Source: Salminus brasiliensis
Lineage: Eukaryota > Chordata > Actinopteri > Characiformes > Bryconidae
Length of the DNA stretch: 64,000 nt
Direction of reading: 5' to 3'
Assembly (NCBI RefSeq): GCF_030463535.1
Contig: NC_132878.1
Location: 20,832,925 to 20,896,924 of the forward strand
The notes beneath the pieces were generated by a model. That model was not told where the DNA came from. It made no database searches and worked only from the letters and a program-made list of their open reading frames with translations. Positions 24,581 through 63,724 of this stretch are shown one piece after another (positions within the stretch are counted from its first letter, which is position 1; every line of letters starts with the position of its first letter). A program made the translations under genes and the position numbers.

Positions 24581-25207
24581 CAAATAGTTTTGGTTACTTT
24601 TGGTTCTATCTTCTCCAACAATCCCTGTTCTACTGGTCAGCTTCAGCAGATCTCTGATAATAAGTTGCTAATAATACAACAGGCAGATATGTTCTTAGGT
24701 CAAAAAAAACAAGTCCAAGTTAAGTCATAAGTCTTTGGCTATTAGTCTTAGTCCATAAGTCAATATAACATACACAAAGCAAATATGGGCAAATATGGTA
24801 CAAATATATGGAAAATATAGCAGATGTGAGAACACAGTTCCACTGCTCCACAGCTCAACTCTGGGGGGCTTTATACCTCTCTAGCCCAGGTCTGGCATTA
24901 TGCCTTGTGCCAATAGGTTTATGTTTAGCAGAGTGTGTCCTCAGAGGCCATATGAAGTCTGGTGTGGTAAGTTCAGTGTAGCTGAAGGCTACCACATACG
25001 CTGCTCACGCAAGCCGGATGTTGTGGTTCATCACAAGAAAAGGGGCAGTGTCCCAAATCGCCAAACTTTCACACGTATCACATGTTTCACAAGTATCTGT
25101 CTTTCTGGAACTACTGTTCATCTAAACTGGTACGTCTCTGCATGAATAAGTCGCCTATTAGTTAAATAAAATATCTTCCATTCTGCTTTTTCTCCTTTCT
25201 TCCTCAG
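24580..25207. other. Spacer upstream of the 28-nt exon, nothing supported
   Basis: AT-rich then mixed composition. An 81-codon open frame at 24900-25145 has no family resemblance. A weak exon-like piece (tcctcag...gtaagt, about 24933-24968) was noted but lacks support. Confidence 0.4.
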
Positions 25208-38461
<13,254 letters not shown>

Positions 38462-39065: not shown

Positions 39066-41076
39066 TATATCAAAAAGGCATAATAATATTATATACTATT
39101 ATATAATAATAACAACATAATAATCAATAATTACTTTCAGTAGATAAAATTTGACATCAATTGCCTGTTGTTAGGTGGACCGCAGCGTTGTGCACACTAC
39201 ACAAGCAGCTTACACACCACATTCTTTACAGCAAATTTTTGAATTGATGTGAAGTGTTCATAATTTTTACTTTTTAAGGTAGTACAGGACCCAGCATTGC
39301 AGTCACTGCTGTCTGTGTTTGATTTATATTATAAACATTATTGATAATGTTACCTTGTTATTATGGCCCTAAACTCAATATAGATGTATATATAGTCCAC
39401 TCCTTATCCTCACCACACAATTCATGCATTTTACACAAATGGCTTAATATGTTGCATATAATGCATCGTTTAGTGTGTAAGGTACTACATTGGGTACTTT
39501 GTAAAAAGCATGGATGTTTTTCAGCCCCTGATGGGTAATGGCACTTCACAGGCACCCTAAAACATTTGACCTTACAACATCTGTATTACATCCAGTGGAA
39601 TAGATTATTCATACCTGTGAATAACACAACCACTTATTATTCTGTTTGATACATTAGGCATTACTTGTGAACAAAATACTTATATTATCTTATGTTATCA
39701 GTTATTATACATATCATTTTAGCATGTTTTTTATATAGACAGGTTATCCATATAATGAAAATAATTCCTAGTAAATTTTATAATATAAGGCTATTACAAC
39801 TTTTAGTATATGCTTACACAGATACATCCAAGCAAACATATTCTGGGCAAGACTGCATTAATTTCATGGTTTTCCTTTTTTAAGTAAATTGTGCTATGCA
39901 ACTCCTACAAACAGTATTGCTTGAACGGTGCACCAGAGATTTGCATCATGCTGGTGTATGTGTAGTCTCTCACTTTCAAGTTAATCAATGCATGAGGAAG
40001 TGACACGATTATACTGTCTAAATGGAAATAAAGGTGCAAAAACACTGTATTTTGAAGTCACTGTGCCAGCGATGTCACAGTCAATAGCTGTACATACTGT
40101 ATGTCTGTCTAGTCAACTCACAGCAATTTAACCTATACATTTACAGTTAAAGTTAAGGAGTGCACAGCCTGGACTGCTTTTTAGGCAGCCAATCAGAACA
40201 GATGCCATTTCTAGCCCCTATATTAATCGTAAAGGCAACAAAAACATCTGACTGTTTTTGATACATAAATCACACAAGTATGTTTTGAAATGTACAGTAC
40301 AAATAAGGAAAACTCTTCTATATGTTATATTAGTTTTAAACTGTAACTAAGAGGCTAACAATAAGGCACGCCCACATTCTCTCAATCTGCTCAAAGTGCA
40401 CTCTGTAACTTACTCTGAATTATAAACATGCACTATGAAGTTAATTCATGCTTATATTTAATAATCTGTAAATGTGTTGTAAACCACAACCAGTCTGCAC
40501 CACCTTAAAGAAGAGCTGGATGCAATAATACAAGTTTAGAGAGATGTGTGTGCACATGATTGCCGCCCTGCCCATTTCGCTGTTGTCCAATAAAAAAAAA
40601 ACATGTACCTCCATTTTTGTCCTGATTATAATTTTCTTTATCATTTGAACACTGAACGCTGCTCTGTACACTGTGTGAATAATTCCGGATGAATAGAAAG
40701 GCTCTAAAATATTTGACACTGACTTTTTTTCCTTCTCCCGTAAAGTCACCATTTCAGAGATGGATCCCCCACTGATTCGATAATGGATAGAAGTAGCAGG
40801 ATAATTCTAAAGTGTGTAAAGCTATACTTTATGCTCCAGTTCAATCAAATGAAGCAAAAAAGGAAAACTTGTAAGACAGCGCATCACTGTATAAATAGCT
40901 CAAGATCATCTCAAGGCAAAGAAATGTTATTCTTTAAAGCTGAAAGAAGCTGAAAGAAGCTTTATTGAATGAGTCAGTCACCAAACATTAATTCAGATGA
41001 GCAAACATTTCAGTTACTGAAGACAAAACTGAAGGTAGCTACAATAAAGGCTTAAAAAAGCTGTGAAAATTCACTA
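38462..41076. other. Intergenic DNA between the GTPase copies
   Basis: Likely holds the copy 1 3' UTR. Contains an A-run plus (TA)n at 39029-39070 and a degenerate palindromic MITE at 40580-40745. No supported coding exon. Confidence 0.5.
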
Positions 41077-41348
41077 AAGGTGCACGTATTTGTCACTGTA
41101 CAGTGTACAGCGAAATATGTCCTCCACATTTAACCCATCTGGTAGTGAACACACACTCACACACACATGTGTTAGGGGGCAGCAAGTACACACACACACC
41201 CAGAGCGGTGAGCAGCCAACTCCAGCGCCCAGGGAGCAGAGAGGGTAAAAGGCCTTGCTCAAGGGCCCAACAGTGGCAACTTGCCAAGCCCGGGAATCGA
41301 ACCCCCAACCCTGTTATCGATATCCTGGCGCTCTAACCGCTGAGCCCT
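41077..41348 (-). mobile_element. tRNA-derived SINE, family A (copy 1)
   Basis: Minus-strand head at the right end: A-box-like ggctcagcggttagagc and B-box ggttcgattccc (seen as gggaatcgaaccc at 41292). The core has ttgctcaagggcccaacagt, resembling the conserved core of V-SINE-type elements, then a CA-rich stretch and the tail ggtgcacgtatttgtcactg. Other copies are at 49720, 51745 and 61664. Confidence 0.85.
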
Positions 41349-44570: not shown

Positions 44571-45484
44571 GATGATACTGTACAAATGGATTACAGAGGT
44601 ATTTGTTAGGTTCAATAAGTACATCTTTATATGAACATTTTAATGTATATGTACATACACTATACTGCCAAACGTATTCACTCACCCATGTCCCATATTA
44701 GGTTTATAAGGAATATTTACAACTTTCCAGCTGTTTGCAATAAACCAATAAAATAAGAGCAATTTAAATAGCTCAGCAACACTAATAGAGGTGCTTTCTC
44801 CAAATTCAACACAAAATGACACTTTTAATGACAATTTCACAGTGATTCATCCCCCGGAATAGAATTCCTCATAAGAGCACACATTTATGAGGGCAAATCA
44901 CGTAGCAAATTAGTTGCATCAGGTGTGCTTCAGATCAAACTTCAGGTGGCTAGGGCTTTGTTTACAGTGATGTTTGATTGCATGTTAGAAATATTCAGAG
45001 AAGAGATCACTGCCTTGCATAAACAAGGAAAAGGATACAAAATGAGAATGTTCTTAGAAAAACTGTTGGAAGCATAGTTTGCGTGGAGGAAGAAGAATGA
45101 AGCACCTGTTTACAGTAAAGCACGGCAGTGGCTCAGTGATGCTTTGGGGCTGCTTTGCTTCCTCTGACACTGGAAACCTGCAGTGTGTGGAGGGCAAATT
45201 AGATTCAGTTAACTGTCAGGAACACCTAACATACCCTTCTCAAGTGTCAAGTCAAGTGGGTTTTATTGTCATTTCAACTACATACAGAGTACACAGTGAA
45301 ATTAAATGTTCCTCCAGGACCATGGTGCAACACAGACACAGTGCATACAGAACACAAGTGCAACACAATACAAGTGCAGACAGACAACACAACACAGTGC
45401 AGACAAAGAATAATAAATTCTGTGAGGAAGCTGAAGCTTAGGCATCACTAGACCTATTAACAGGATAATTATCCCCAAGCATAC

Positions 45485-45551
<67 letters not shown>

Positions 45552-48500
45552 TGTTGTTGTGGATTATTCTACACTATTAGGTTGGTCACATTTTTTCTGC
45601 CATTTAAGAAACCTACTCTGCCATAATAAATTCTTGAATTGCTTACACAGCATGCTTTGGATTATTATCCATTTCCAACAAATGAATATGAATATGAAAC
45701 AGAAAGTACAGATTTCTATGCTTTATAATTAATCCTGACATATCCTGATAATTTCTATCAGCAGTCAAACCAGTGACCCAGTTCCATTGTCAGTTATACA
45801 AGTGCATGCCATAATAGTACCTCCACCATTTTTGACAGTTGATGTATAATACTTCAGATCATTAATCTTTCCTTTCCTTCTCCTTACTCACAGTAACCCT
45901 GTTTGTTTCTGTCCATAATATCCTATGCCAGAACTTTGCAGGCTTTGGAAGATGGTTTCTAACAGTCTAATCTGGTCTTTCTGTTCTTCACTGTTACCAA
46001 CAGTTGGCATCTTGAAGTTCCCCTTTTGTATTTAAATTTGTGAAGGCATCTTTTGATGGTAGACTTTGATAGGGATACTTTGAAATTATTGAGATTGTTT
46101 TTGATTTGACTAGATGTTGTGAGGAGTTTTTCATCATCAATGAAAGAATACCACTTTCATTCACTTTAGCTGTCCTCTTTTGTCTTCAACTTTTTTTTAA
46201 TTTTAAGAATATTCCATATTGTTGATATAGCCACTCCTAAAGTTTATGCTCTCTCTGATAAGTCATGTTTTTTTGTTTTTTTTCTGGCTAATGATGGCTT
46301 CCTTTACTTGCATTGTCACTTCTTTGGACCAAATATTTCCCATTAAAAATTAAAATACATTCATTGAAATCAACTCCAGACCTTTTATCTGTATAATTCA
46401 GATTTCTTTAGTATTTTCAGCTTTGTTGTTATGTTGTGTGTTTAACTGTGACTCTGTTTGTGTGTGTCTTAAGTTTATACTAATATGTGAATTCGGAAAA
46501 ATGTCAAACTTGAAGAATGGGTAATGCAGTCAGTTTACAATTCATACATTTTTATCTGCAGGAAGTAAAAGACCATGCCTGAACATGCCAGACAAAGCAA
46601 ATACTGGTAAGATTTACAATTAATTGACATTGTTGAATTCTGCAATAAGAAGTATGGCTGTGATGACTGGTCACAGGTTTGCTTAAACTGTTTATTTGTT
46701 AATTACTTGTAAGCCTGTAAAAATGGGAGGAGATGCTATGTAAAATATGTCTTGTTAAACCCCTTAAATTAAAGCTGAATATCTACATTTACATTTACAT
46801 TTACGGCATTTAGCAGACGCTCTTATCCAGAGCGACTTACAAAGTGTCTACACAATACACAATACACAATAAATATCTACACAATAAATTACATATTGAT
46901 AGTTTCATTTTAAATCCTTTCTGGTGGTTTACAGGGGCAACATTAGATTTTTGGTCACTGTCTAAATACTTATGGACCTGACTGTGTATTAATTTAATTT
47001 TTTATTTAATTTTAACCAGGTAAAAAAATAGCTCCTGAAAATGACAACCTTTCAAAAAAAAGGTTGTGTACCAGCCATGAGAAAACAGGACCTGGTGAGA
47101 GTGGTCATTTGCTCCTGTTTTCAAATCTGTTTGTGTGTGTCTTAAGTTTATACTACAAATATGTGCATTCATACAGGAAGTAAAAGCTTACAATTACAAA
47201 AGATTACAAAATTTCCAATTATTTGACAGTGTTCAATTCTGCATTGAGAAGTGGCTGTGATGACTGGACTTGTTTGTACTAATTTGTTTATGCTCTCTCT
47301 CTCTCTGATAAGTTATGTTTTTTTTTTTCTGCCTAATGATTTTTTTCCGACTTTCCTTTACTTGCATTGTCACTTCTTTGGGCCAAATATTAAGAGTCCC
47401 CATGACATAAAAATGCCACCATTGAAATCAACTCCAAGACCTTTTATCTCTGTAATTTGCCATGAAATAACAAGAGAACAGGCCACACTTTGCCATGAAA
47501 TTGCTTATCTGTTAACTGTCCAATTACTTTCAAGCCTGTAAAAATGGGAGGGGAGGTGGTTATGTGAAATATTTCTGTAATTTCTAAATGGTCAACTAAA
47601 TCTTAAAGTTAAATGACAACCTTTCAAAAAAAAGGCGGTGTACGAGCCATGAGACAACAGGGCCTGGTAAGAATGGTAATTAGCTCTTGTTTTCAAATTC
47701 AGATTTTTTTAGTATTTTCAGCTTTGTTGTTATGTTGTGCATTTAACTATGGCTCTGTTTGTGTGTATCTTAAGTTTATGCAAAAAATATGTGCATTCAG
47801 AAATATGTCAAGCTTAAAGAATGCGTAATGCAGTCAGTTTACAATTGATACATTTTTATCTACAGGAAGTAAAAGACCATGCCTGACCTCAGACAAAGCA
47901 GATACTGGTAAGATTTACAATTATTTGACAGTGTTCAATTCTGCATTGAGAAGTATGGCTGTGATGACTGGACTTGTTTGTACTAATTTGTTGTTTAAGA
48001 ATACCAAACCAAACCTATTTAAAAATAATTAAAGACAGATCAAAATAATAAAGTTGACAGGCTGCCAAAAGTGTCAGTGGGCGAGTCAGTTAAAGTCAAG
48101 CTTGGAACACTAAATATTAAACCCTGGCAAATTCAGTATAGATGAAGCTCCAAAAATAGAAACCTTTTTGAAATAAGGTTTAGAGTCCAGGAAAAAAAAA
48201 CAGGGCTTCCCAAACATCTAACAAGTTTTCTTAACAATTCTATTTGCCATGTCACTGTTTTTTTTAACATTTTTGTAGTAGTGACGTATGTATGGAATGT
48301 AGGAATTATGATGTGATTTGAAACAGGGCTGATAGTCTCTCCTCCCCAGAAAGAGTAAACAATGCAGATTAGTGGTGAAGAGAGAACTGCGAGTTTCATT
48401 GGTGAGATTAAACTTTAGGGCAACTGTTAACTAAGCTGATTTTAGAGATTCAACTTCAGAGGGATGTGAATTAGAGTTTAGTTTTACAGTCAGTTTACAC

Positions 48501-51500
48501 TTGATTCAGTCCTCCTGCCAACTCAAAAACTTTACAAAAACCATCTGGTAACTTATTTGATCTTTTTTAGAACCCTGGCCTTGGACCACGAAAGTGTGCA
48601 TATGAAGGCTAAGGACCACAAATGATCAGCTCATACAGTTCTGTTAAAGTTTTTTAATATTTAGCATATTCACATCTTTCTGATCTTTACTTGAACAATA
48701 CCAAGAAATAGGAGAGGTAATATAACATTTATATAAAAATTAGGACATCCCCTCATTTATTACTACTAAATGCTTAAAATTAGAATCAGGGGCACCACAT
48801 TAGCTGCAGATGATTAAAACATCATTAATGGGGATTTTGGAGGAGCCTGGCTTTAAACCTCAGACATTTACTGTGGATTACTCTTGATGTAAAGTGGGTG
48901 TTATTACTATGGAGAGGTCCAAATAGCTTTATGATGCCTCCAGAGAGAAGGTTGTAGATGTATACGAGTCTGGGAAGGGATTTTAAAAGATCTCGGAACA
49001 CTTAATAATCAGCTGTTCTAGCACGTTCAGTCCCACAGCAGACTACAAAATGCGTAAAGAAGTCTCCTACAATCCTTTGATGTCAACACAGGATCTATAG
49101 TTAGCTCTTGCCATTGCTGAAGCCAAAGTACAGCATCTACCATCAGAAAAAGACTACACACGTTTGATTTTCATGGGAGGTGTGCAAGGAGGAAATGCTT
49201 GCTGTCATAAAAAAGCTTTTCAGAGAACACCTAGACCAAGATCAGGACATCTGGAACAATGTGCTTCAGACAAAACAATCCAAAGTTTAATTAGTTGGAC
49301 ACAGTAACAGAGGACATGTTTGGTGTAAACCAGACACAGCATTTGAGCACAAGAACCATGTGAAGCATGTGGAGGTGGACATGTCATGGTTTGCGGCTGC
49401 TGTTCTGCAGTAGGGCCTGGAGAGCTCTCCAACATGGAATTCACAAGGAATTCTTTATTGTATCAGAGGGTGCTTGAGTAAAATGTGAGAACATCTGTCT
49501 AAAACCTAAAGCTGAAATGTCACACAGCTGAAACAAATCTGCATGGAGGAGTAGGAAAAACTTTCTCCCAGTTGATGTCAGAGACAGGTAGATGGTAGAA
49601 GGTAGAGGTAGACAGGAAACATCTAAATGAAATTATTTTTGCTAAGGTTGGAAATGTTAGCTATTAGGGCATAGGGTGTCCTAACTTTTTCCACACAAAG
49701 GAATTCCCAATTAAGATAAAGGTGCACGTATTTGTCACTGTACACTGTACAGCGAAATGTGTCCTCGTCATTTAACCCATCTGGTAGTGAACACACACTC
49801 ACACACACACATGTGTTAGGGGCAGTGAGTACACACACACACACCCAGAGCGGTGGGCAGCCAACTCCAGTGCCCGGGAAGCAGAGAGGGTAAAGGGCCT
49901 TGCTCAAGGACCGAACAGTGGCAGCTTGCCGAGCCCGGGAATTGAACCCACAACCCTGTTATCGATATCCCGGCGCTCTAACCGCTGAGCCAATAAATTA
50001 TATTATATCATATTATATCAATTACGTTTTACAAATTATTTAAAATACATTTATTCTGTGTTATTAATTAGTAATAGTACCTCCAATTCCCTAATATTGT
50101 TTAAGTAAATATCAAATGTCCATATGTTTAAATTTATAAATTTAAAAAAGACAAAGATTTTCATGGGGTGTTCTAACTTTCTCACATGACTGTATGTGTA
50201 CATTTGATACTTGTTCTGTGCAGATAAACAAAAAAGTACATTTTTAACTAATTAGTTCTTGAAATTTGGGTTAATGACCCCAGTCTAATACATGACCAAA
50301 TAAACTCATTCCCCCATGTGCATGAAAGCCACAGGCTGAGGGTGCTGTGGGAGCTCACTGAGATTGATTAAAAGGGAGAGCAAGCAAATCTGTATGAACA
50401 AGTCTACTAAATGTGCCTGAAAACAGTTGAAAATACTCCTAAGACCATTTACTCTCGATTTACTGACTTTGGGCTCTCAGATATGAGTCTTTATCCTCTA
50501 AAGGTGTACGATTTGAGCCTCAGTTCACTGGAACATGATATGTGCTGTGACATGCCTAGATTGCCAGCTATGAGTCCAAACATGTCAGTTTATTGTCAAC
50601 ACTTGTGTCAGTAACTCAGCAGATATGTTGTGTTCACATGTCCTAGTCAGAAGATCCTATTTCTCACGTGTGAAGTCAGAATTACAAGCACATCATGTTC
50701 AAGGGCTTTGATGTTGAAACAAGCTAGCTATCGGTTCTTTCAACACCAGTTGCTGGATCTGAGTCATTCTCATTTAAATGTTTATTGTTGGCTGTTTAAC
50801 CAGACGTGAAGTTGTTCTTGTGGTGAGCAGATTTCTAACCAGCTTGTCTCTTCTTATTCACAGCAATTTAATATTTGTAGTTGATGTCACACTGACAATT
50901 TAACATTTATTGAATTAATAATCTAAAAATGTGCACAGTGTTCACTTTTTCTAAGACCCTGTGAGCAAACAGAACTTTGTATTTGAACATTTTATGTTTA
51001 AAAAAAAAAACGCAGGATGAGATTGCATGGGAGCCATATAATGGCTTACACCATGCCCCTGGTAATACCACATATAGCTGTAATATTGAGATAATATAAC
51101 AGTATGAATAAAGTGGATATCGCGAAACTCTTCTAAGAACACCAAATTCTAATGTACATTAATTACTCAAACAAAACTTTTTAACTTGTTTTAATTCTCA
51201 ATTATTATTTTCCTATTGTATAACTGTTTAGTGATGAATGTCAGCAAAGCCAAAGAAATTATGACCAAAGTTGATGATCAACTCAATAACCTTGCCAAGT
51301 TCATTGAATACATCAGGTACAGTGATCTTAATAATGGCACCTTATACTTATATACAATAGTAGCAAAATTGATAAGCCCTATACATTTAGAAATGTGTTA
51401 TTTTTATGCCTTTGTGCACAGGGAAAACATTACAAAATTGGATGCTGGTATAACAAAGAAAACTACCGTTGGAGTATTTGGGAGGACAGGGGCTGGCAAG

Positions 51501-54500
51501 AGCTCTCTGATAAATGCTATCCTGGGAGAAGACCTGTTGCCATCAGGAACCCTCTGTGCCTGTACTTCAGTCATCATACAGATTGAAGCCAATGTAACAG
51601 ACTCCAGCTACACAGCTGAAATTGAATTCATCTCAAAAGAGGTACACAGACTATACATTTTTCTAAGAGCACATATGGAATTTCAAATGAAATTGATCAT
51701 TACTGTAATCTTTAAAGTTACTAGGGTGTAGTGGTATAAAGGATAAAGGTGCACGTATTCGTCACTGTACAGTGTGGACTGTACAGCGAAATGTGTCCTC
51801 CGCATTTAACCCATCTGGTAGTGAACACACTCACACACACACACGTGTTAGGGGCAGTGAGTACACACACATACCCAGAGCGGTGGGCAGCCAACTCCAG
51901 CGCCCGGGGAGCAGATAGGGTAAAGGGCCTTGCTCAAGGGCCCAACAGTGGCAGCTTGCCGAGCCCGGGAATCGAACCCACAACCCTGTTATCGATATCC
52001 CGGCGCTCTAACCGCTGAGCCACCACTGCCCCACTTCAGTATGTGTATTCATACTGAACTGTCATGGTATGGGGGAATACACAGTACAAGCTATTAGAGT
52101 AATGTCACAAGCATGTGTTCCACTTGGAAAACAAGCTGTAATCTAATGGAATTGCATGGTGGTGTGGGAACTGTAATACGTTCAGGAGTACCGCTATGGT
52201 AACCATAGTCTTATTTGTCCCCCCTTTCTCTCACTTGTCTCTCTCCCTCTTGCTGCCATGTGTAGATGGAGAGAATGCTTGTTTTTATCTCTCTTTATTT
52301 TTTATTTCTTCTTCCTGAAAATAGTAATCCATAGTTACAACCCATAGCTACAATACTTTAAGAGTGACTGGGCACACATTATTTGTTAGCTCTTTTAGCC
52401 TTGTAGATCCTGTGCAAAATATGGAAAGGAACCTTGAATGCATAATGACTCTATTTACAATAAATTACTAAATTGTGTCCCTGCAATTCTTAGCTGAACC
52501 ATCATTTAAATACATCAGACATGAAGAAGTAGTTAGTAGTTCTGTAGAGGAACAATGTTAGTGTTAAAAAAACATAAATTATAACATTCAGTTCTTTTAA
52601 ACTCTGGTACTGCAATTGAATGGGAAAGTAAATCATTTTGTAATAAAAACTGCAGCTTTACTTTCGCAACACTGCTCTTACTACGAAATTCATGTAGTAT
52701 ACCCAAGGCTTAAATGAACAAAATCAAACAGACAGTGAATATTTTAGATCAGAGATATTTCAGAGAATTTCATAATTCACTTAACACTTAATTTTGAGAA
52801 GAAGTCTTTGCTGGGTGCAGTGTGACTGGAGTGTTCCTGTAAGTAAACGTTTAATGAAATTTACTGCATTTAGCAGACACTCTTATCCAGAGCGACTTAC
52901 AAGGTTACTCATATTACATAAGTGGACTAATGTAGTGTTAGGAGTCTTGCCCAATGACTCTTATTGGTGTAGCGCAGCAGTCACCCAGACCAGGAATTGA
53001 ACCCCAGTCTTCCATGTGGTGAGGTAGCTCACTGGTAGGTAGTGGTGTTATCTGTTGCACCACACCAATCACCACTCTCATGAAATCTTGTTGTGTGAGG
53101 CTTCTGACTGTAAAAGTTTCTATCTGTCCTTCAGGCTTGGGAAGATGAACTCAAGACCATTCTTAATGTGTTATCGAATGATGGCGAGGAAAAGGACAGT
53201 GCAGTGATCGACACAGCAAAAAACAAGATTTCAGCACTGTATGGAGAAAAAGGTCTTTCCATGACCCTAAAAGACCTCATGAAAGCTGACAATTTCTCTG
53301 ATATTCCAGAGTTTCTCAACTGTAAACCTAAAAAGATAATTTGTAAAAAGGTAAGACGATGTAGGCTTTGTTGTTAAGAATGGGAATTCTGAGTACAAAG
53401 AGGGAATCATTCTACTTACCGTACATATAGTACAAGTTACTTCTTTCTTGTTAATGTCTGTACATTATGTGTTTAACACCAGGCCCTAGATCTTGCAGAT
53501 GAAACTCAGTGTTACGTTCAGCATGATCGGTCAAGTCCAGGAGGATGGTACTGGCCAGTAGTGAAGAGTGTGACCATTAAGGTTCCAAACTGTAAAGACC
53601 TTCTGGAACACACTGTTTTAGTGGATCTGCCTGGACTTGGAGACTACAACAAGAGCAGAGATCAGATGTGGAGATCGGTGATTATTGCTATTATTTCATT
53701 ATTAGTCAGGGTCTCCTTTCCCCGTCATGAGAGTACTGCAAAGTACAGTTGATGAGTTTGCAAACAGTGAGCCAAAATAAGTTTAATATGAACTTAAGCT
53801 TAAGTTAATTAAGCTGGTTAATTGTTTTAGTTCAACACTACTTCACAACAATAGAATCTAATGTAGCCTAAATCACCACATGTTTCTGTCACAAGTTCTC
53901 AAACCTCAAACAGACATTGTGTAGTTTGTTAAATGATGTGATTATTAGGCATGCAGTTGACATAGTACTGTAAGCTATTTGTCATACACTTTTTTTTATA
54001 ATCATTATATTTGATAAAAGATGTTCTGACCCCAGAAACCTCACTTTAAATAAAATTACTTACTAACCAATGCTGTAAATAGTATTTGAAAATATATATA
54101 AATAATCATCTCAAGAACAGCCATGGCTTAAATCCCAGCAACTGTTCACAGTTCACTGTTGCTGATTACATTTCCTTGTAATGTTATGAATTATAATATT
54201 CTCTGATGTTCTGCAGAAACTGAGAGATTGTTCTACAGTGTGGATTGTAAGTGAAATAAACCGTGCTGGCTCTGACGATGACGCCTGGAAGATTTTAACT
54301 AGCAGCATAACAGACTTGGCACAAAGAGGAGAGTGTAGGAGCCTCTCCTTTATCTGTACCAAGACTGATGACATCGACCCACAGAACTACATGCGGTTAG
54401 TTAATTTATGATGGGATTACAACAAAATTAAAAATAAACACAAGCAGGGTATGTAACAAATCATGACCAAACCATGAACAGATGATCAAAGAGATTACAT

Positions 54501-57500
54501 ATACATACATACAAATTACAAGATACACTTGGGGGGGATTATAAAGGGACAGGGCTCGGAATGAATAACACCTGGAGACACGACAAAGCAAGTGTTATGC
54601 TTTAAAATGTATCTTGCTCAAGGGCCCAACAGTGGCAGCTTGTTGAGCCCGGGTATCAAACCCATAACCCTGTCATATATATACACACGTGGACAAAATT
54701 GTTGGTACCCCTCAGTTAATGAAAGAAATACCCACAATGGTTACAGAAATAACTTCAATCTGACAAAGTAATAATTAATAAAAAAATTTATGAACATGAA
54801 CAAATTAAAATCCGACACTGATTTTGAACCATGCTTCAACAGAATTATTTTCAAAAGTAAACTCATTAAACAGGACTGGACAAAAATGATGGTCCCCCTA
54901 TAAATAATGTGACCAAAGGGACATGTTAAATCAAGGTGTGCCCATTAATTAGCATCACAGGTGTCTACAATCTTGTAATCAGTTAGTGGGCTTAAATATA
55001 GGGCTACAGGTAGTCACTGTGCTGTTTGGTGACATGGTGTGTACCACACTCAACATGGATCAGAGGAAGCGAAGGAAAGAGTAAAGTCTCAGGAGATTAG
55101 AAAGAAAATTATAGACAAGCATGTTGTAAGGGGTGGCTCTAGGGCAAGGCCTCCTCCTGCCACCAGGGGGAGGCCCCGAGTCACCCCAGCCAGTAATCGA
55201 GCCCAATTCCCTACACCTGGGCAGTAGGCTATATAGGCACACAGATCCAGTTGCCCCACTGCTGGATCTTTTGATTCTGGTGGTGTGTGTATCTGTGTGC
55301 CTGTGTAGGTTTCGAGTGGAAGGCTGAGTGTGTGTCACTCCCCTTCGTGTGTCTCTCCCGAGTCTGTCTCCCTGTGTCTGTGCAGTGTGTGTGTCTGTGT
55401 GTGTGTGTGCGCGTAGCACACATACACTCGTGTACCAGAGGAAAGCAGGAGTGTCTGTCTTCTCTGGTGTGTGTGTCTGTGTGTGTGTGTGTATGTGTGT
55501 GTGTTTGCACACATACACTCGTTTTACAGAGGAAGGCAGGAGTGTCTGTCTTCCCTGGTGTGTGTGTATGTGTGTGTGTTTGCAACATCAGTGTAAGATC
55601 ACACCATCCGTCGTTGTTTGGGCCAAAGTAGACTTCATGGGAGACGACCAAGGAGGACACCATTGTTGAAAACAAATCATTAAAAAGCCAGACTGGAATT
55701 TGCCAAACTACGTGTTGACTCTTCATCATAGAATCTACTATGTTATCAGAGGGTGCTTAAGGAAAATGTGAAACCATATATCCAAACTGAGACTAAAGTG
55801 GAGATGGTATTTATTAATGAAGATCCTGTTTATGAAGACAATATTTAATTTGGCGCGGGGGGGGGCTGTATTTAATGACTGTATGTCTAACAAACATACA
55901 TTTTTGTTGTAATGCAGACTGAAAAAACTGAAGCATGACAACTTGCAGATTACACAAGAGGAAAGATGCATTATGCACAGAAATGAAACAGCCAAGGAAA
56001 TGGTGAAGAATACTTTTCATCAAATACATACAGTAAAGGTATGCTTTCATACATTATTTTTTCTACTGTAAGAAAGCCATGAACAACAATTTGTTCTTTG
56101 ATTACCTGTGATCCGACCAGTATTGTGTGTCATTCTCAAAACAGCAAAAATACAAAACATATGAAGTGTTTTTGATTTATGGAAATACAGTACAATATTG
56201 TAATAGCTACCAAGTCCTTATAAACACCAGACACTGATATGTTTCCAGGTAGCTGGCTGAAGAACCATGGAAAAATACTTAAACCTACACCACTTTTATT
56301 TAGCAAAATACTAGTCATTTTATTTATTTCTTTTTATTTTCATTTTCATTTTAATTTGAGGCTTATGATTAAGTGCGCTGTCTCCCAACTGCACAAATGC
56401 AGTGCAGTTCAAGTGCTGTTGTTCATGCCAGCTTTAAAATCTTGCACTATGTTGCTCTCAACCAATATTCGCTGAGCGGGCTTCCAGGCATTTGTAATTT
56501 TGCAATGGTGATCACACACCAGCTGCACATTTTTAGAGTGATAGTTCTTTCTGTTCACATACTGGTCTTCGTGCATCTGAGGCGCCTGTATCCTGATGTG
56601 TGTTCCATCAATAACACAACAAACGTGTGGAAAGCTGGTTTATAAAAAATCTTAATGACCCCTTGCTCCTGACAGGACAGGAACTTAACCCCCCTGTTAT
56701 GTTCATTTGCCAGGAACAAATGCTGTTCCTGGGTCAGTTCGACCCAGTGTGTGTTTAATTATCCAAAATATGTCTGAAACCAAAAGAATCCTAACAAGCA
56801 GTGTGAATATTTAAGTACTAACTCCCTTACTAATTATTCTATAAAAATTTAGTGCAATGGTGTTCCTTACCTCTAACAGGTAATGGTTCAATTAGAATAA
56901 TTCACCTGTTTTTGATTACCAACAGCTCAGCAGATGAGCCCTGTTCTTTTGGACAGTTAGTTCCGACCATTGTGAGCTTTCTCTTTAGAAGCTCCTGACC
57001 GATATTGTAGTTTGTGAAAAAATTGTCACAGGTTATGTTGTGCCCCCTGAGACCCTGTGCCATGTCGAGCACGACCCTTGTGCCCTGATTCTTTTTTTGG
57101 GGCTCCTTCAACCGGCTTTCCAGTGTAAATCTGCATGTTCAATGCATAGCTGGTGTTTGCATCACATGCTGCCCAGATTGTTATCCCATATTTAGCTGGT
57201 TTGGAAGGCATGTATTGCCTAAATGGGCAGCGACCTCTGAATGCCACCAGCCTTTCATCCACTGTGATATTAGGGCCTGGGTTGTAGAGTACTGGAAGTT
57301 GCTCTACCCACTTGTCCCAAACTGTCCTAATAGCTGCCAGCTTGTCTCTCTCCAGTCTACCAGCCCTAGTCTCTCGATTACCAAACCAGATTACTCTGGA
57401 GAAAATGTGAAAAGTCTCCAGAGACATTGTGGCTCGAAATATAGCCCTGCCTGTCTCTGCATCCCACAGACTGGCTGTCGATTCATCCTTCGACTTATAG

Positions 57501-60500
57501 ACCCTAGCCAGGATGAGGAGCCCCAAATACGCATCTTAATGTGTTTTGTCCAGCTCCTTCCACTTCTCCCCAAAAACACGCCTCTCTTTTAGATGAGTTA
57601 TTTTCTGTATTGAATCTGGCATGACCAGCTCAAAAGCTGACTTGATGTCAGTCACACAACTCACTGCCATCCTAGTGGGCCCTGGCACTGTCTTTATCAT
57701 GTTTTCTGCTGACAGTTTTGCCTGATGCATATTTGGGGATGAAGACCACTGTATTTAAACATTTTTTTACATGAATGTCTTGCTTGGAGAAATACAAATA
57801 GCAATTCCCTCATCTGGTTCAAAATCAGAATCATTAGAATCAGAATTTAGCTCAAGATAGTCTTCGTCTTCAGACACATCCTCCTCTATTTCACTGTCAT
57901 GATCAATGATGACTTCCAGAGCCTCCACAGTCAATACCAGGTCCTGCTGCTCATTTTCATGAATGTAGTTTAAAATTAGTTTTATGTTCTCTGTGAAATG
58001 CTACACTAATTTACCATACAATGACTCAGTATATACCTTATCACTATAAAGTGATAGCTAATCGAAGAGTGAAATGGTGACTAAGCGTCTTCCAGTGCTT
58101 GATTCACAGCAACCTGGTTGCAATGACCCCAAGGGAAAACAGCCCTCCAGTGTCCATTGATAAAAAAAGTCTAATCACAATTTGTTTTACATTTAGTCAC
58201 TGTGCAATCGTGTGTTATTTTAATGTATTAAAGTTTTTACAACATTAAGGAGACAGGAAATATGGAAAATAAGGAGAACCTATATTTAAGCAAATTTGTT
58301 CGAACACAATGGTTATACACATTGAGGTTAAAGTTCATTTTCTTCTTTGTTTTTTCCCCACTAGAAACACTTCAACTGTGATGATGATAATTTCTTTTCT
58401 GTGTACACTGTAAGTTCAAGAGAATTCACCAAGACAAATCCAATTCTCAACCCAGAGCAAACAGGTAATCCATAACACATGTTAAATATAATATGATTAT
58501 TTTGATTGACAAACTTATGCAATAATATATAATATTATGCAATAAAACCTCAGCAAACATTTCATGAAATGTTTTTTAAATAAAGTTTGAATTGAGTGGT
58601 TATGTGATTTCTGTTGTTTACATTGCACTAGAACAACAAAAGATACAATACAGTGCCTGAATGATCAATTGTACATTTAAAAAATAACCATAAGAATAAT
58701 CTATTTGCATGACATGTTCTAATCTAAATGTATGTAGAGATACCCAAACTAAGGGAACTCTTGAAGAAGTACAGCAAGAGTCATACAAATGAAATACAGC
58801 ATCACTACATCTCTGGAGCAATCGGAATCCTGTCTTTAATTGAAGGTTCCAAGGAGAGCAACGATGATATGGTACGTCACATCATAAATTTAAGAGTTTC
58901 TTCATCTGTTAATTTTTTTTTCCATTATTCTTTTTATGTTCTTTTTTTTTTTATACTGAAATCCCCAAAAGGCTGTTGTATTTGAGAAGACCAAAACATA
59001 ATAGAGGGCTGGGCTGGAAAAATGGGCTTACATGTTTTTTTTTCTGGTCAACTATAAAACTTAATGATTTCATAACACACAATGCCTTAAATTTAAATTT
59101 AATGTAAATTGTCAGTGCTCCCACAAGACCCAAATACCCAAATAAATTCACATTGATTGATCATGTTTTAACCATTTAGAAAGAGGGACTTTTTAAATTG
59201 AGGCATAATTCTTGGCTAATATGTACTTGGGAAAAATATTTTTAACTCCTAAAATTCCTTATTTCTGTTTTTGTTTTTTATGGGGGCGTTTAAGGAGTAT
59301 GAAGTGAAAGGGCGGGGCAATGATTGGTTCTCTGATATATTCTGAAATAATTTATTCTTAAAAGTCTTAGTACATTAAAATCTAGAACCAGTTTTAAGCT
59401 TGCTGCACATGTAATTGTTGACCCACTTGTCCCTGAAGAATTCTGTACCTATGATTTGTAAATCTATGTTAATTCCACCGCTCCTAAAAGGGGAAGATCA
59501 GAACTTCTTTAGTGTTTAGTCATGTGTTCTCTGGAGTGACGAATCATGCCTTTCTGTCTGGCAATCCATTAGAAGAATGGTCAAAAATTCCCATAAACAC
59601 ACTCCTTAACCTTGTGGAAAGTCTTCCCAGAAAAGTTGAAGCTGTTATAGCTTCGACGACGGCTCAACATGATATTAAACCCTGTGTGTGTTTGTTTGTG
59701 TGTGTGTGAGTGTGTGAGAGTTGATGTTAAGAAATTTTAATTGTATGACCATGTTTTTTCCTTGTCTTTCCTTTTGATTTTCAAATTCCTTCAATTCAAA
59801 AAAGAATATCTAGACAATCTTGTGTGAAACTGATATACAATCAGCTCATTACTGTCTTATTTGAATAAAAGGCCTTTGTATTTAAAATACAAATTCAGAA
59901 TTTATACACTAAAATATGTTTTTATAAACATTTATGTTTTAGATGGAAGAGAAGTCAAAATTATACAAGAACTTAGAAAATAAGTTTCGGAATGCACTAC
60001 AACACTTGGTTCAATACTGTGGAAAAATCCAAAGCTCCCTGGAAGAACTTCTCTTAAAAGGAGCAAAAGAATCTGAAGAAAAATGCCTTGCAATTGCAAA
60101 AAAAATAATATCACCAGTAAGTAGTTTTCTTTGAATGTACAATGTATAATCTATGCAATTTTTTTAATCAGTTAAATTGTTTATACTTAAAAGGACATAG
60201 ATGGTCGAGAATTTCACCGAAAACTGACAGCATTGTGCGAAAATGATGGATACTACAGGTCTAGGACGGGGGAAACGCAAGATCTCAATAGGAGTTTGGC
60301 CGAACCAATGGAACAGCAAATTAGTCAAACATACACTGATTTTTTCACGTGAGTAAAAGCAATAGTTTTGGTAAAGCTTACCATTAGTTAAAGTTAGCTT
60401 AACAGATACTGAATACTTGTTTTGGTATAGCAAGAACCCCCATGTAGCTATTAATAACCTAACACATTAATCAACAGCATGTCATCTTCCAATTGACACG

Positions 60501-63500
60501 ACACTTGATCGACCAGTTTGTCAGACGTCTTGTAGACGTTGCTGGTCACAGCACTGCGCCCATTCCTTAAGGGATTTTGTTACTCTTCTCCATAAACTTT
60601 CCATAATCATGTCACACTGCTCCTGTGTCTGATCTTCTCGTTCCAGATGCAATCTATGAATCAATCAATGAAATTCCCAACACTGACTGTTCCATAGCCC
60701 TCTGTGTAGTTATTAGTTATTGTTCCTCCCTCTTTGTGGTGGCCCAAGTCTTCCCTGCATACAGCATTGCAAGCAAGACTGTGCCATTGACATGTGCCAC
60801 TTCAGCACATCCTTCACCTAGTTGAACGCTTTCCATCCTGATTCTGAGATTTCCTTCGCCAAGTCGCGTCTCATGATCACCTCCTGCCCGAGGTACACAT
60901 AGCCTTCCACCTCCTCTATTTCATTGCCACTCTATAAAGTACTTCCTTTCACATTGCTTGAGGCTTCTGGTCCTATGCGACCTTCAGGAGCTTTTCCTTC
61001 CTGAACCTCTCCTCCAGATGCCTTGCAAATGAATACTTAACCATCTGATCCATCATGTTTCATATTTGTGCACTTTTCCATCATCTTCTTAGTCTCCTCC
61101 AAGAGTCTTTCACTTTTCGTGGCCAGTCATTCACTTCTCAGATTCCTTTCACAGAGCCCGAATCTTCCTACAACCTTTGGATCTTCCTACAAACTTTGGA
61201 GACTAAAATGCCCTCTAGCTCCTGATAGCACTTCCTCGTCGTCACTGTTAATAGTGGGAGCATACACATGGATGATTTTTAAGGTGGTCTTTCCTGAGAG
61301 TCAAAGATTCAGCACATCTATTCTCAAGGACACAAGCTGGAGGTAATCTTCAAGGCCCATTTCTTGCTGATGATGAACCCGACACCTCTGACAGGTCTTT
61401 CACCTTCTCCACACCCTACTCTCACAATGCTACCATCTCACATTTATTTCATTTCTCTGACGTGTTTTGCAGAGTCCCAGAACAGGTTCGTCTTTTTCCT
61501 AGACAGCTTCTTGACAACTGAGATTCTTTGCAGCCTCTCGTCACACATATTACACCATGTTGTCCTGGAATGGTCTGACTGACGTGCAGGGTACTGGGGT
61601 CCTTTTTCCAATGCCATGTTTTAGCCTTGTGCTACACAAAAAGTAAATCCTTTTTAAAGGTAAAAAATGTACAGCGAAATGTGTCCTCAGCATTTAACCC
61701 ATCTGTGGTAGTGAACACACACTCACGTGTGTTAGGGGCAGTGAGTTCACACACACACACCCAGAGCGGTGGGCAGGCAACTCCAGCGCCCGGGGAGCAG
61801 AGAGGGTAAAGGGCCTTGCTCAAGGGCCCAACAGTGGCAGCTTGCCAAGCCCGGGAATCAAACTCACAACCCTGTTATCAATAGCCCGACACTCTAACCG
61901 CTGAGCCACCACTCCCCAAACTACCTTTCCAAACTAGAGTGGGGCATATCATCACAGTTTTCTCTCTTTCTGGTGTTTGTATGTTTTTAACAATGAAATA
62001 TATGCATTTGTCACATTATATGATGTCACACACCACCCCCCCCCCCGAACACAATGGTAGTAATGGTAAAATGGCATTTAGCTAAATGTAATGTATTATA
62101 CATCATTTATGTGTTAAACTACATATTTGTTTTCTTTTAACTTACTGATTCATTTCTTGGATTCATAGACAGCTGATGACCTATTTTAAATGCCTCTTTT
62201 TTTAGAGTCCAAGTAACTGAGAAATCACTGTTAGCATGCATTGATAAGTTCATCATCATTCCAGATGACTTGATTACAAACTATAATAATTCTCCAGTGC
62301 TGAGACACATGCTGAAATTTCTTCAAACTCAGGTAAACAGAACATTGCGTTATAATCTGCATTTGGTTTATGTGATAGCTGCTATACATCAGTCATGTGA
62401 CAGTTTCATATGATCTCCTATTATTTGTCATTTATTTATTTAGAAAAAGTACAGTTTCAAGCCTCTATTATAGTTTTGAATCATTTTGCAACCAATTATG
62501 TACAAGCTATTGTAGATGTTTCATGAAATCATTGTTCTCTACTAACTGAGTTTTTAATATGTTTTAATGAAAGTCATTCATCAATTATATACATTGTTAT
62601 ATTTGTACATGAATTATGTACTAATATATTTTGGCTTTTTAATGTCTTACAAACAGGAAATGAAACTGAAGACAGAGCTCACTCAAACAATTATTGAGCG
62701 AAAGAAAGAAATATACGATATTCCTTCTGCTCACATTAAAGAAACGATGCAGCAAGCCTACAAATGTAAGTTATTGCTCATGATATTTTCAAGATTAATT
62801 TGGCCTAATCTAACTCTAAAATGCAAATGTGAACAACTTTGCGCTGTATTAGGTGCTGCTGACATTACTGGACCCGGCTCTATGAAAAAGAAGCAGGACA
62901 TGCTGTTGAATCACATAGAAAGATCAAAAAGTACAATGTTCCAGAACGCAAGGAGAGAGATGCTTGATGAGCTGTATAAAATACTGGTTTGTATTTGTAC
63001 AATATTGTGCAACGGTCTTAGGGAAGAAAGAAGAAAATTATTATAAACTTTATATCAGCAGTAACTGTATTTATGTCAGTAAAAAAACAGCAGAATAAAT
63101 ACAAACATAAATAAATATAGTTTTAAAAAGTTTAATTGTCCTGTTTGTCAAGTTATGTAGGTTAAAAAAAAAGAATTCTGGAAGATTGACTGCTGACTTC
63201 TCTGTGAACTCCAGCCACTGTATGGATTTATTTAGTTTCATCAGCAGCTCACCAAATTTACTTTAATAAGGGACTGATACACTAGGTGATAGAATAGGTG
63301 TTGGATGGGAACTGTAATATAGTTAAGAGTACTGTTAAATATAGTTACTACCACATACACTTATTGATGTTGCTTATTTGTTTTTCTAAATTCTAAATTA
63401 AAAGTTTATTAAATTTGCTTTTCACATTATGGTCTCATTCTCTTTAAAAGAATTTCACAATGGAGATCCAAACAACATTAGAAAAGTCAATGGAATATGC

Positions 63501-63724
63501 CCTTCTTAATGCAAACACCTTGCCTACAATAGGTGAGTAATTTTAAGTTTGACATGTGTTCATGCATGTTCATGTCCCATTATTTTAATTCCAAAGGATG
63601 ATTTAGATTCACTGCTTATAATCTATAAGTTACCAACAGATTTGTTTTAAAATGTTATTTCTTTTGTGTCATAGAAATCAGCGCAAAGCTAGAAAAACTG
63701 AAGAAGTTCTCAAAAGTTCTCTAA
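44571..63724 (+). CDS. nuggc-like: Nuclear GTPase SLIP-GC-like, tandem copy 2
   Basis: Paralogue of the gene ending at 38461. Exons: 44571-44598, 46562-46606, 47020-47094, 47866-47907, 51232-51316, 51422-51641, 53135-53350, 53483-53677, 54217-54395, 55918-56038, 58365-58464, 58738-58871, 59943-60116, 60194-60348, 62206-62332, 62657-62765, 62853-62986, 63451-63532, 63675-63724 (TAA). Sum 2271 nt, 756 aa. Three small phase 1-1 exons encode basic segments (GSKRPCLNM; LSKKRLC; GSKRPCLTS), NLS-like. G1 is GVFGRTGAGKSSLINA, G3 is VDLPGLGDYNKSRDQMW and G4 is CTKTDD. One codon is missing after the P-loop relative to copy 1 (GEDLLPSG versus GEKDLLPSG). Exon 55918-56038 replaces two exons of copy 1. 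All junctions are GT-AG and the frame is intact, so it is probably functional. Confidence 0.88.
44655..45236 (+). mobile_element. Tc1-like transposon, deleted
   Basis: Starts with the terminal phrase tatactgccaaacgtattca. The later part encodes KHGSGSVMLWGCFASSDTGN (within 45079-45235) of a Tc1 transposase. The remainder is deleted and abuts the dispersed repeat at 45240. Confidence 0.8.
45240..45345. repeat. Dispersed fish repeat (copy 2 of 2)
   Basis: Homologous to 15009-15115. Followed by short cacaacacagtgca-type direct repeats and then (TA)n. Confidence 0.6.
45488..45547. repeat. (TA)n microsatellite
   Basis: About 30 ta units. Confidence 0.97.
45880..46985 (-). mobile_element. Old Tc1-type element split around an N-terminal exon of copy 2
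   Basis: Positions 45990-46375 read, on the reverse complement, like an eroded Tc1-type transposase region. Positions 46700-46985 match the expected element end (aaaaatgggagg ... ggtttacag ... atttttggtcactgtctaaatacttatgg). Between them, 46385-46690 is the host segment carrying exon 46562-46606. A shorter, uninterrupted relic of the same element is at 47270-47570. Confidence 0.55.
46385..47990 (+). repeat. Microduplicated exon array in copy 2 N-terminal region
   Basis: Exon type X (gaagtaaaagaccatgcctg) occurs at 46562 and 47866 with about 280 nt of matching flank (tcagattt...tttagtattttcagctttgttg to gtatggctgtgatgactgg). A truncated third copy (acaggaagtaaaag, about 47174) has the same right flank. 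Exon type Y (aatgacaacctttcaaaaaa) occurs intact at 47020-47094 and decayed at 47612-47667. Order: X, Y, truncated X, transposon relic, decayed Y, X. Confidence 0.85.
46785..46850. repeat. SINE family B tail fragment
   Basis: catttagcagacgctcttat at 46807, followed by ccagagcgacttacaaag. It lies inside the Tc1-type relic, so it was inserted later. Confidence 0.75.
48745..50197 (+). mobile_element. Tc1-like transposon interrupted by a SINE
   Basis: Left end aaaattaggacatcccc (48747) and right end ggggtgttctaactttctca (50165) are imperfect inverted repeats. The interior reads as an eroded plus-strand transposase (phrases around ctatggagaggtcc, aagtttaattagttgg, gtgaagcatgtggaggtgga). A family A SINE sits at 49720-49992. 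Many stops; inactive. Confidence 0.8.
49720..49992 (-). mobile_element. tRNA-derived SINE, family A (copy 2)
   Basis: Full-length copy inserted in the Tc1-like element, same boundaries as at 41077. B-box region gggaattgaaccc, with one change from the consensus. Confidence 0.85.
50198..51231. other. Intron of copy 2, nothing recognised
   Basis: AT-rich intron sequence up to the acceptor at 51231. Short open frames on both strands lack support. Confidence 0.45.
51745..52037 (-). mobile_element. tRNA-derived SINE, family A (copy 3)
   Basis: Best-preserved copy, including the complete tRNA-like start (complement of gctgagccaccactgcccc) and tail ggtgcacgtattcgtcactg, with a small cagtgtggactgtacag expansion. 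Confidence 0.88.
52038..52854. other. Intron of copy 2, nothing recognised
   Basis: AT-rich, no repeat family or exon identified. Confidence 0.4.
52855..53070 (-). mobile_element. tRNA-derived SINE, family B
   Basis: Close relative of 21123-21347, ending 64 nt before the exon at 53135: catttagcagacactcttat tail, gtagtgttaggagtcttgcc core and gttatctgttgcaccacacc head. Confidence 0.8.
54606..54674 (-). mobile_element. SINE family A fragment truncated by a Tc1 insertion
   Basis: cttgctcaagggcccaacag through cccataaccctgtca, then abruptly the Tc1 terminus at about 54682. The remainder of the SINE head is not found on the other side. Confidence 0.75.
54680..55770 (+). mobile_element. Tc1-like transposon with its middle replaced by foreign DNA
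   Basis: Left terminus acacgtggacaaaattgttg, then the 5' region to 55127 (with the MDQRKRRK start of a transposase). At 55590 sequence typical of the transposase middle resumes (gacttcatgggagacgacca, cattgttgaaaacaaatcat). The block at 55128-55587 is unrelated to Tc1, and about 0.6 kb of expected transposase sequence is missing at the junction. Confidence 0.8.
55128..55587 (+). mobile_element. LTR-like insert with internal GT-rich tandem repeats
   Basis: Begins tgtaaggggtggctctagg and ends tttgcaaca, giving TG...CA ends as in LTRs. It contains a TATA-like ggctatataggcac. About 80-nt units (cacacatacactcgt ... gcaggagtgtctgtctt ... gtgtgtgtgt) are repeated two to three times. A solo LTR is a reasonable guess; no target duplication could be verified. 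Confidence 0.45.
56400..56645 (-). mobile_element. PIF/Harbinger nuclease (HARBI1-like) fragment
   Basis: The minus strand reads FPHVCCVIDGTHIRIQAP then QYVNRKNYHSKNVQLVCDHH in one frame. VIDGTHI holds the first catalytic Asp and the second run matches the conserved HARBI1 nuclease core. Only this piece remains, in the intron of copy 2 after 56038. Confidence 0.85.
56685..58010 (-). mobile_element. piggyBac (PGBD4-like) transposase relic
   Basis: A TTAA at 56685 abuts cccccctgttatgttc, fitting piggyBac TTAA targeting at the 3' side of the coding strand. The minus-strand frames are: an acidic N-terminal region (about 57800-57960), 57730-57536, 57526-57026 (LLILARVYKSKDESTASLWD, PGPNITVDERLVAFRGRCPF, QYMPSKPAKYGITIW) and 57111-56902 (GLRGHNITCDNFFTNY). 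The DER motif includes a catalytic Asp. Frameshifts separate the pieces and the C-terminal cysteine-rich domain is absent, so it is inactive. Confidence 0.9.
59490..59700 (+). mobile_element. Tc1-like 3' remnant
   Basis: tgttctctggagtgacgaat is joined by an internal deletion to the C-terminal coding end (EEWSKIPINTLLNLVESLPR), then tattaaaccctgtgtg. Confidence 0.85.
60480..61625 (-). mobile_element. RTE-clade LINE relic
   Basis: Minus-strand broken frames. Positions 60640-60830 read like the RTE C-terminus (LQCCMQ/AMLYAGKTWATTKREE, then TTQRAMEQSVLGIS). Positions 60830-60900 precede it (GGGRLCVP, YLG-like region). Further right (61070-61500) are eroded endonuclease pieces such as RGVGFIISKKWALK. 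Large internal deletion; inactive. Confidence 0.7.
61664..61920 (-). mobile_element. tRNA-derived SINE, family A (copy 4)
   Basis: Same head and core as the other copies; the distal tail starts at tgtacagcgaaatgtgtcc, so the ggtgcacgtat end is missing. Confidence 0.85.

Follow-up and report, generated by a model that had tools for sequence, protein, structure and literature searches.

The window analysed here is a stretch of 64,000 nucleotides from Salminus brasiliensis. It covers part of a cluster of three dynamin-like, probably SLIP-GC-like GTPase genes; SLIP-GC/NUGGC is the putative name for this cluster. A search for gene copies (E<=1) gave 12 exon matches, with four exons matched per gene of the cluster, and a single-exon genome search gave three matches. 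No further copy outside the cluster was found among the best-scoring candidates, a search in which distant relatives may be missed. Copy 3 is a tandem gene outside the window (C1:20909469-20922874, window coordinates ~76,545-89,950); its GTPase exon lies at C1:20912048-20912269 (window coordinate 79,124).

The gene that holds the exon array is copy 2. Its model matched the Pfam family Dynamin_N (E=1.2e-18, residues 103-323), a dynamin-type GTPase domain, and DUF7605 (E=6.2e-8); other P-loop families were matched more weakly. Among solved structures, the matches were weak throughout (best E 2.4e-4) and included ABC transporters, mitofusin-1 and a GTP-binding protein. A profile search with DUF7605, a domain that is split over exons here, found one match under the curated cut-off; this match lies outside the cluster, and the cluster itself was missed. 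The copy 2 core showed a dN/dS of 0.39 against copy 1 (634 codons, dS 0.54) and likewise 0.39 against copy 3 (617 codons, dS 0.52), with codons left out where the other copy had a gap or a stop. Weak tblastx alignment rows with stops in both sequences were set aside. The core dN/dS and the Dynamin_N match were counted in favour of the reading preferred below. With X1, Y1 and X3 included, the model has no stop over 735 codons, up to and including exon C14, an openness that is partly built in because the starts of exons C7 and C10 were set by alignment to copy 1 and by the open frame.

The array is located in the first coding intron of copy 2, which is 6.6 kb long. The features of copy 2 are as follows.

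44586-44598, + strand: start exon of copy 2, coding part (MDYR G, phase 1 donor), from splice scores.
46003-46394, no strand assigned: TE1 left part (left edge provisional), a dispersed repeat interrupted by the X1 block, from genome matches of its duplicate and the part order in other copies.
46395-46681, + strand: X1 block inside TE1, 89% to 47696-47971; right edge approximate, by eye.
46562-46606, + strand: predicted exon X1, 45 nt, phase 1-1, SKRPCLNMPDKANT, from splice scan and frame.
46682-46990, no strand assigned: TE1 right part, from genome matches and comparison with other repeat copies.
47020-47094, + strand: predicted exon Y1, 75 nt, phase 1-1, KKIAPENDNLSKKRLCTSHEKTGP, from splice scan and frame.
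47126-47290, + strand: X2, a truncated X, from alignment to X3 and splice scores.
47286-47610, no strand assigned: TE2, the duplicated part of the TE1 repeat, uninterrupted, from BLAST and genome matches (which reach 47595).
47611-47666, + strand: Y2, a decayed Y, 89% to Y1, from this match and an acceptor scan.
47696-47992, + strand: X3 block, homologue of the X1 block, from BLAST.
47866-47907, + strand: predicted exon X3, 42 nt, phase 1-1, SKRPCLTSDKADT, from splice scan and frame.
51232-51316, + strand: C1, the constant exon that comes next in copy 2 (phase 1 in), from alignment and open frame.
51422-63532, + strand: exons C2-C14 of copy 2, introns included, with the Dynamin_N and DUF7605 matches; model open through C14.

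The start exon of copy 2 probably begins at 44571, and a 45-bp stretch at this place matches copy 1 at 25195-25239 (89%). This exon (44571-44598) also contains an extra upstream ATG, which is out of frame with the main start and absent in copies 1 and 3. When its frame was joined to X1, Y1, X3 or C1, a stop followed within six codons of the junction; the ATG would thus open a short overlapping upstream reading frame.

Five units are arranged in 46,395-47,992 in the order X1, Y1, X2, Y2, X3. A preliminary description of this DNA had listed them as X, Y, truncated X, decayed Y and X within ~1.6 kb, and both the order and the coordinates were right; the lengths (45, 75 and 42 nt) and the phase 1-1 that it gave for the intact exons are exact. 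It had also proposed a self-comparison of the flanks. In BLAST of the region against the window, self-matches were counted if they started after 45560, in one direction per self pair. X1 and X3 were homologous including their flanks, which leaves the claim of flank homology standing (46395-46670 vs 47696-47971, 89% over 279 columns, E=2e-102). Y1 and Y2 matched at 47039-47126 vs 47611-47698 (89%, E=6e-27); X2 and X3 shared a 3' flank at 95% with gaps (E=3e-31) and a 5' flank at 91%; and the blocks upstream matched at 46249-46398 vs 47299-47457 (78% with gaps, E=9e-31). The similarity within the array is far beyond chance. X2 lacks three stretches in comparison with X3; it retains the acceptor and has lost its donor along with the greater part of the exon. 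In Y2, the acceptor and the first part of the exon are gone, and the donor is retained.

For the splice-site weight matrices, 33 donors and 34 acceptors were taken from constant exons in all three genes, the X and Y exons being excluded; some training sites of copies 1 and 3 were placed at the nearest AG/GT within 4 bases. The acceptors of X1, Y1 and X3 scored 10.9, 9.9 and 10.8 (training median 8.3). For the donors, the scores were 7.0, 6.0 and 7.0, against a lower quartile of 7.0 and a minimum of 5.6 in the training set. In X2, an acceptor (9.0) is present and a donor is lacking; Y2 has a donor (7.0) and no acceptor of its own. The whole 6.6-kb intron was scanned for symmetric stop-free exons of 27-120 nt. 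Five candidates were obtained. X1, Y1 and X3 ranked highest among them by acceptor score, and one of the remaining two has 4 K/R. Four control stretches of equal length, two of which overlap by 1.6 kb, yielded 1, 1, 2 and 1 candidates, none with >=3 K/R. Looser cut-offs gave eight candidates in the copy 2 intron (including X1, Y1 and X3), three in copy 1 and three in copy 3. X1, Y1 and X3 thus look splice-competent as predicted exons, and X2 and Y2 are dead. A rescue of Y2 through the best other acceptor, at 47535 (132 nt), was rejected, with stops in all three frames.

The claim that each intact unit can be skipped in frame was confirmed over the stretch that was read, as all seven skipping combinations were open over the first 330 nt. 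This pattern might suggest that the predicted exons are alternatives, chosen by tissue or stimulus under regulated splicing, with differing N-terminal tails as the outcome. However, the three exons together are also in frame, and nothing seen enforces exclusivity. Such regulation appears extremely unlikely.

The N-terminal exons of copy 1 were located at the corresponding place.

25208-25235, + strand: start exon of copy 1, from alignment to copy 2 and splice scores.
25335-25415, + strand: Y-type exon of copy 1, 81 nt, phase 1-1, 26 residues, from alignment and splice scores.
25726-25767, + strand: X-type exon remnant of copy 1 without a donor, from alignment and splice scores.

The single basic exon of the same phase that had been described for copy 1 is therefore present at 25335-25415. 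The X remnant of copy 1, the existence of copy 3 beyond the window and the repeat that holds X1 had been missed. In copy 3, a Y-type exon of 93 nt and then an X-type exon come after the start exon; in this N-terminal region, copy 3 resembles copy 1 more closely than copy 2. Between the Y exons of copies 1 and 3 there is an in-frame length change of 12 nt (81 vs 93 nt), and both carry RSPSPER after the basic cluster. The original donor of the copy 3 X exon reads GA, and a donor six bases upstream yields an exon of 39 nt in phase 1-1. The classification of this exon as dead, based on the old donor, was dropped in view of the alternative in-frame donor, through which the predicted exon may be alive.

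Relationships among the X and Y exons were compared by pairwise shuffle tests (1000 each), and the z values are inflated because the shuffles kept base composition only and included the donor bases. With Xc, Yc and the copy number denoting the exons of copies 1 and 3, the X exons gave z 6.8 for X1-Xc3 and 9.8 for X3-Xc3 (each 0/1000), 6.5 for X3-Xc1 (0/1000) and 3.5 for X1-Xc1 (12/1000). The Y exons gave z 4.4 for Y1-Yc3 (0/1000) and 3.1 for Y1-Yc1 (13/1000). Across the two types, the X and Y exons of copy 3 gave z 12.3 (0/1000), and X1-Yc1 and X3-Yc1 gave 5.0 and 7.8 (each 0/1000). Other cross-type pairs were reached by shuffles: 106 of 1000 for X1-Y1, 44 for X3-Y1, 76 for X1-Yc3 and 392 for Y1-Xc1.

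Genome-wide searches stayed within the locus. Y1 with its flank found two matches (DNA search, E<=1), both in the array, and the X3 block found four, all inside the array. An 18-base X pattern with up to two mismatches occurred at 56 places in the genome vs 53 for the reversed control, and only X1 and X3 were exact. The copy 3 Y peptide (E<=5) matched copies 3 and 1, and Y1 was not among the matches. There was no sign of a genome-wide family of X/Y exons in these DNA, pattern and peptide searches. Sequence searches tie the copy 2 exons only weakly to those of the other two genes; the link is drawn from position, phase and the pairwise shuffles. Since Y-like and X-like exons occupy the corresponding place in copies 1 and 3, the Y-X pair probably predates the copy 2 array. 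X and Y themselves are probably old duplicates of one exon, a common origin drawn mainly from copy 3, and the copy 2 array would then be a second round.

The array is interwoven with repeats. The block at ~47,275-47,595 matches at least many places of the 1.07 Gb genome at 71-84%, and is therefore a dispersed repeat. A second short dispersed repeat is located inside TE1 (~46791-46886), with matches of 96-100% elsewhere in the genome. The array was set against six other genomic copies of the first repeat. In four (L002, L003, L005 and L008), the part left of X1, the TE2 part and the part right of X1 follow one another in that order, with the matched parts falling within 46,003-46,394, 47,297-47,591 and 46,754-46,989, respectively. 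L004 has the left and middle parts only, and L006 the middle part only. Since four of the six carry the TE2 part at that place, the X1 block sits inside TE1; judged by eye, it replaces roughly 35-40 bases of the repeat. TE2 is uninterrupted at the site that matches the X1 insertion, so the arrival of X1 would be later than the tandem duplication. Two junctions, read by eye, carry short overlaps: GTT at X2/TE2, common to the X downstream flank and TE1, and 4-bp AATT at the left of X1, common to the TE and the X upstream flank.

Two further observations concern the surroundings. A repeat of ~275 bp occurs within the cluster at 41075-41346, 49717-49991, 51744-52021 and 61668-61907, with 88-92% identity. 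The stretch 49000-49480 resembles what we take to be a remnant of a DNA-transposon coding region.

The simplest order of events that we infer has four steps. A dispersed repeat would have been present just upstream of a Y-X pair. The TE-Y-X segment would then have been duplicated in tandem, with the short GTT overlap at its junction. A block of ~285 bp around an X exon would have been copied into the first TE (TE1), and deletions would finally have disabled one X (X2) and one Y (Y2). The origin of the array as symmetric exons that were gained and lost inside a repeat-rich intron is well supported.

The preliminary description regarded the expansion as ongoing, which the divergence does not bear out. 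Differences were counted at aligned sites; gapped sites were omitted, and hence also the 3-nt and 12-nt length differences of the exons. The counts were 21/231 for the X1/X3 flanks, 4/46 for the X2/X3 5' flank, 7/60 and 5/62 for the 3' flanks of X1/X2 and X1/X3, 14/139 and 7/52 for TE left and right, and 5/56 and 5/32 for the Y1/Y2 exon and flank. Most duplicate stretches of the array thus differ at 8.1-15.6% of aligned sites. This is about the same as the intron flanks of copies 1 and 3 (47/394, 11.9%, a count that includes the start exon and the X remnant), and two of the five units are dead. Two stretches count against old age: the X1/X2 5' flank (46453-46494 vs 47126-47170) differs at 1/42 sites (2.4%), and the X2/X3 3' flank (47208-47288 vs 47910-47992) at 2/81 (2.5%). 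The latter differs from the pooled TE and Y pairs (31/279) at an uncorrected p=0.015. These near-identical stretches hint at later gene conversion or uneven rates, and they are the best point for recent activity of the array. Later gene conversion, to which they would hint, is an event left out of the simple order above.

Excess conservation of the X exons over the flanking intron was not found for X1/X3 (3/42 vs 21/231, Fisher p=1), a comparison of low power because the exons are short. The Y-type exon of copies 1 and 3 differs at 2/81 sites vs 47/394 in the flank (p=0.008); being constrained between these copies, it cannot drift freely. The counts favour a basic Y exon that is conserved in copies 1 and 3, and a repeated tail in copy 2 that would evolve loosely.

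These results bear on whether the array might be intronic debris, the start exon being spliced to Y1 alone or directly to the core, with X1 and X3 never used. The lack of extra conservation in X1 and X3 agrees with this, as do the two dead units, the X-type exon without a donor in copy 1 and the loss of the old donor in copy 3. However, in X1 and X3 both splice sites have survived, along with the frame and the phase, despite ~9% divergence and a frame-keeping difference of 3 nt. Their acceptors score above the training median and their donors at its lower quartile, and the X exon of copy 3 has its alternative in-frame donor. We consider pure debris rather unlikely.

Classical nuclear-targeting signals follow the pattern K[KR]x[KR] or a bipartite pattern with a spacer of 10-12 residues. 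None of the eight exon combinations of copy 2 matches either one (first 95 residues at most), an absence that is weak evidence because 68% of shuffled tails lack the first pattern. Shuffled full tails of copy 2 show the first pattern in 31.6% of cases and the second in 14.4%. Y1 falls one spacer residue short of the bipartite pattern, which it matches with a spacer of 9 residues. The start exon with the single Y exon carries both patterns in copies 1 and 3; each alone occurs in 9.0-13.6% of 5000 shuffles, and the two co-occur in 1.6% and 1.2%. Of the units in copy 2, only the dead Y2, which reads SKKRRC, has the KKRR cluster; the live Y1 reads SKKRLC and has KKRL. Each X exon contributes one KR pair and a lone K.

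The preliminary description interpreted the array as the ongoing, selected expansion of a modular nuclear-targeting N-terminus. Several features would fit: symmetric basic exons have multiplied in copy 2, the Y-type exons of copies 1 and 3 carry the two classical patterns, Y1 comes within one spacer residue of a bipartite match, and two short stretches of the array are only 2.4-2.5% apart. However, no combination of copy 2 matches the standard patterns, whereas copies 1 and 3 match both with one Y exon. An added X brings one KR pair and a lone K, the KKRR cluster lies in a dead unit, most duplicates are 8-16% apart, and two units are dead. A better nuclear-targeting signal does not clearly appear to have been built through the array, and selected expansion is very unlikely. 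That symmetric, skippable exons were duplicated at the N-terminus of a GTPase gene is supported; that this is ongoing, and that it expands nuclear targeting, is not supported.

A related idea is that the exon set tunes where the three GTPases work, copies 1 and 3 with a strong signal in one conserved Y exon and copy 2 with weak basic exons. Copy 2 would have lost the consensus (KKRR in the dead Y2, KKRL in Y1), and splicing of several weak basic exons might grade or switch its nuclear entry. If true, a division of labour would have arisen via exon duplication in a repeat-rich intron. This appears quite unlikely.

The reading that we prefer, with a probability of about 0.65, is a local tandem duplication of the Y-X pair in copy 2, whose predicted exons would form a loose basic tail and whose spread would be mostly a by-product of tolerance. 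The predicted exons X1, Y1 and X3, one at a time or in combination, would be spliced in after the start exon and ahead of the constant core. The resulting tail would be short, loosely constrained, mildly basic and N-terminal, and its length could vary by 14-25 residues per exon with the GTPase untouched. Since the introns flanking each unit are phase 1, the tail should tolerate gain and loss. The array would then be mostly a by-product of that tolerance and of the repeat-rich intron, and not the selected growth of a nuclear-targeting region.

The array is an ordinary exon duplication, a small case of a known kind. The general class is tandem exon duplication, a subject to which PMC9013439 appears to be devoted. 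As in that class, whole symmetric exons with their flanks were duplicated side by side; adjacent homologous exons have homologous flanking introns, and the symmetric phase (1-1; 45, 75 and 42 nt) keeps the frame. The copy 2 array differs from simple tandem exon duplication in that a two-exon unit was duplicated together with part of a mobile element, and in that one extra block was inserted into that mobile element.

The gene resembles the nuclear GTPase SLIP-GC/NUGGC in its Dynamin_N domain, its later DUF7605-matching region and its multicopy state. According to excerpts of PMC5638112, NUGGC is variable and multicopy in Cottus, likely in tandem since stickleback shows a tandem arrangement, and excerpts of PMC7316828 cover SLIP-GC expression in salmon. 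N-terminal exon repeats were not found in the titles and abstract openings of part of the SLIP-GC/NUGGC literature.

A similar layout is found in the fish NLR-C (NLR-B30.2) genes. In the excerpted text of two papers, zebrafish NLR-C, a large family of immune genes, has N-terminal repeats of ~30 aa, of two main types, on separate exons and in a number that varies from gene to gene (PMC4852459, PMC11192531). As described there, the likeness consists of short N-terminal repeat exons of two types upstream of a conserved nucleotide-binding domain; it is a likeness of layout. The NLR-C repeats of ~30 aa belong to NACHT-domain NLR proteins, whereas the copy 2 units of 14-25 aa belong to a dynamin-like GTPase. 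NACHT and Fisna were not among the nine Pfam families matched by the copy 2 model at E<=0.01, and Dynamin_N was found downstream instead.

A tally of basic exons cannot stand in for the detection of nuclear-targeting signals. A parallel may be drawn with the repeat exons of the fish NLR-C genes, as far as those excerpts describe them. The locus would show, in readable form, how exons can be added to and removed from the N-terminal tail of a duplicated fish GTPase family when the intron that holds them is rich in repeats and in phase 1.
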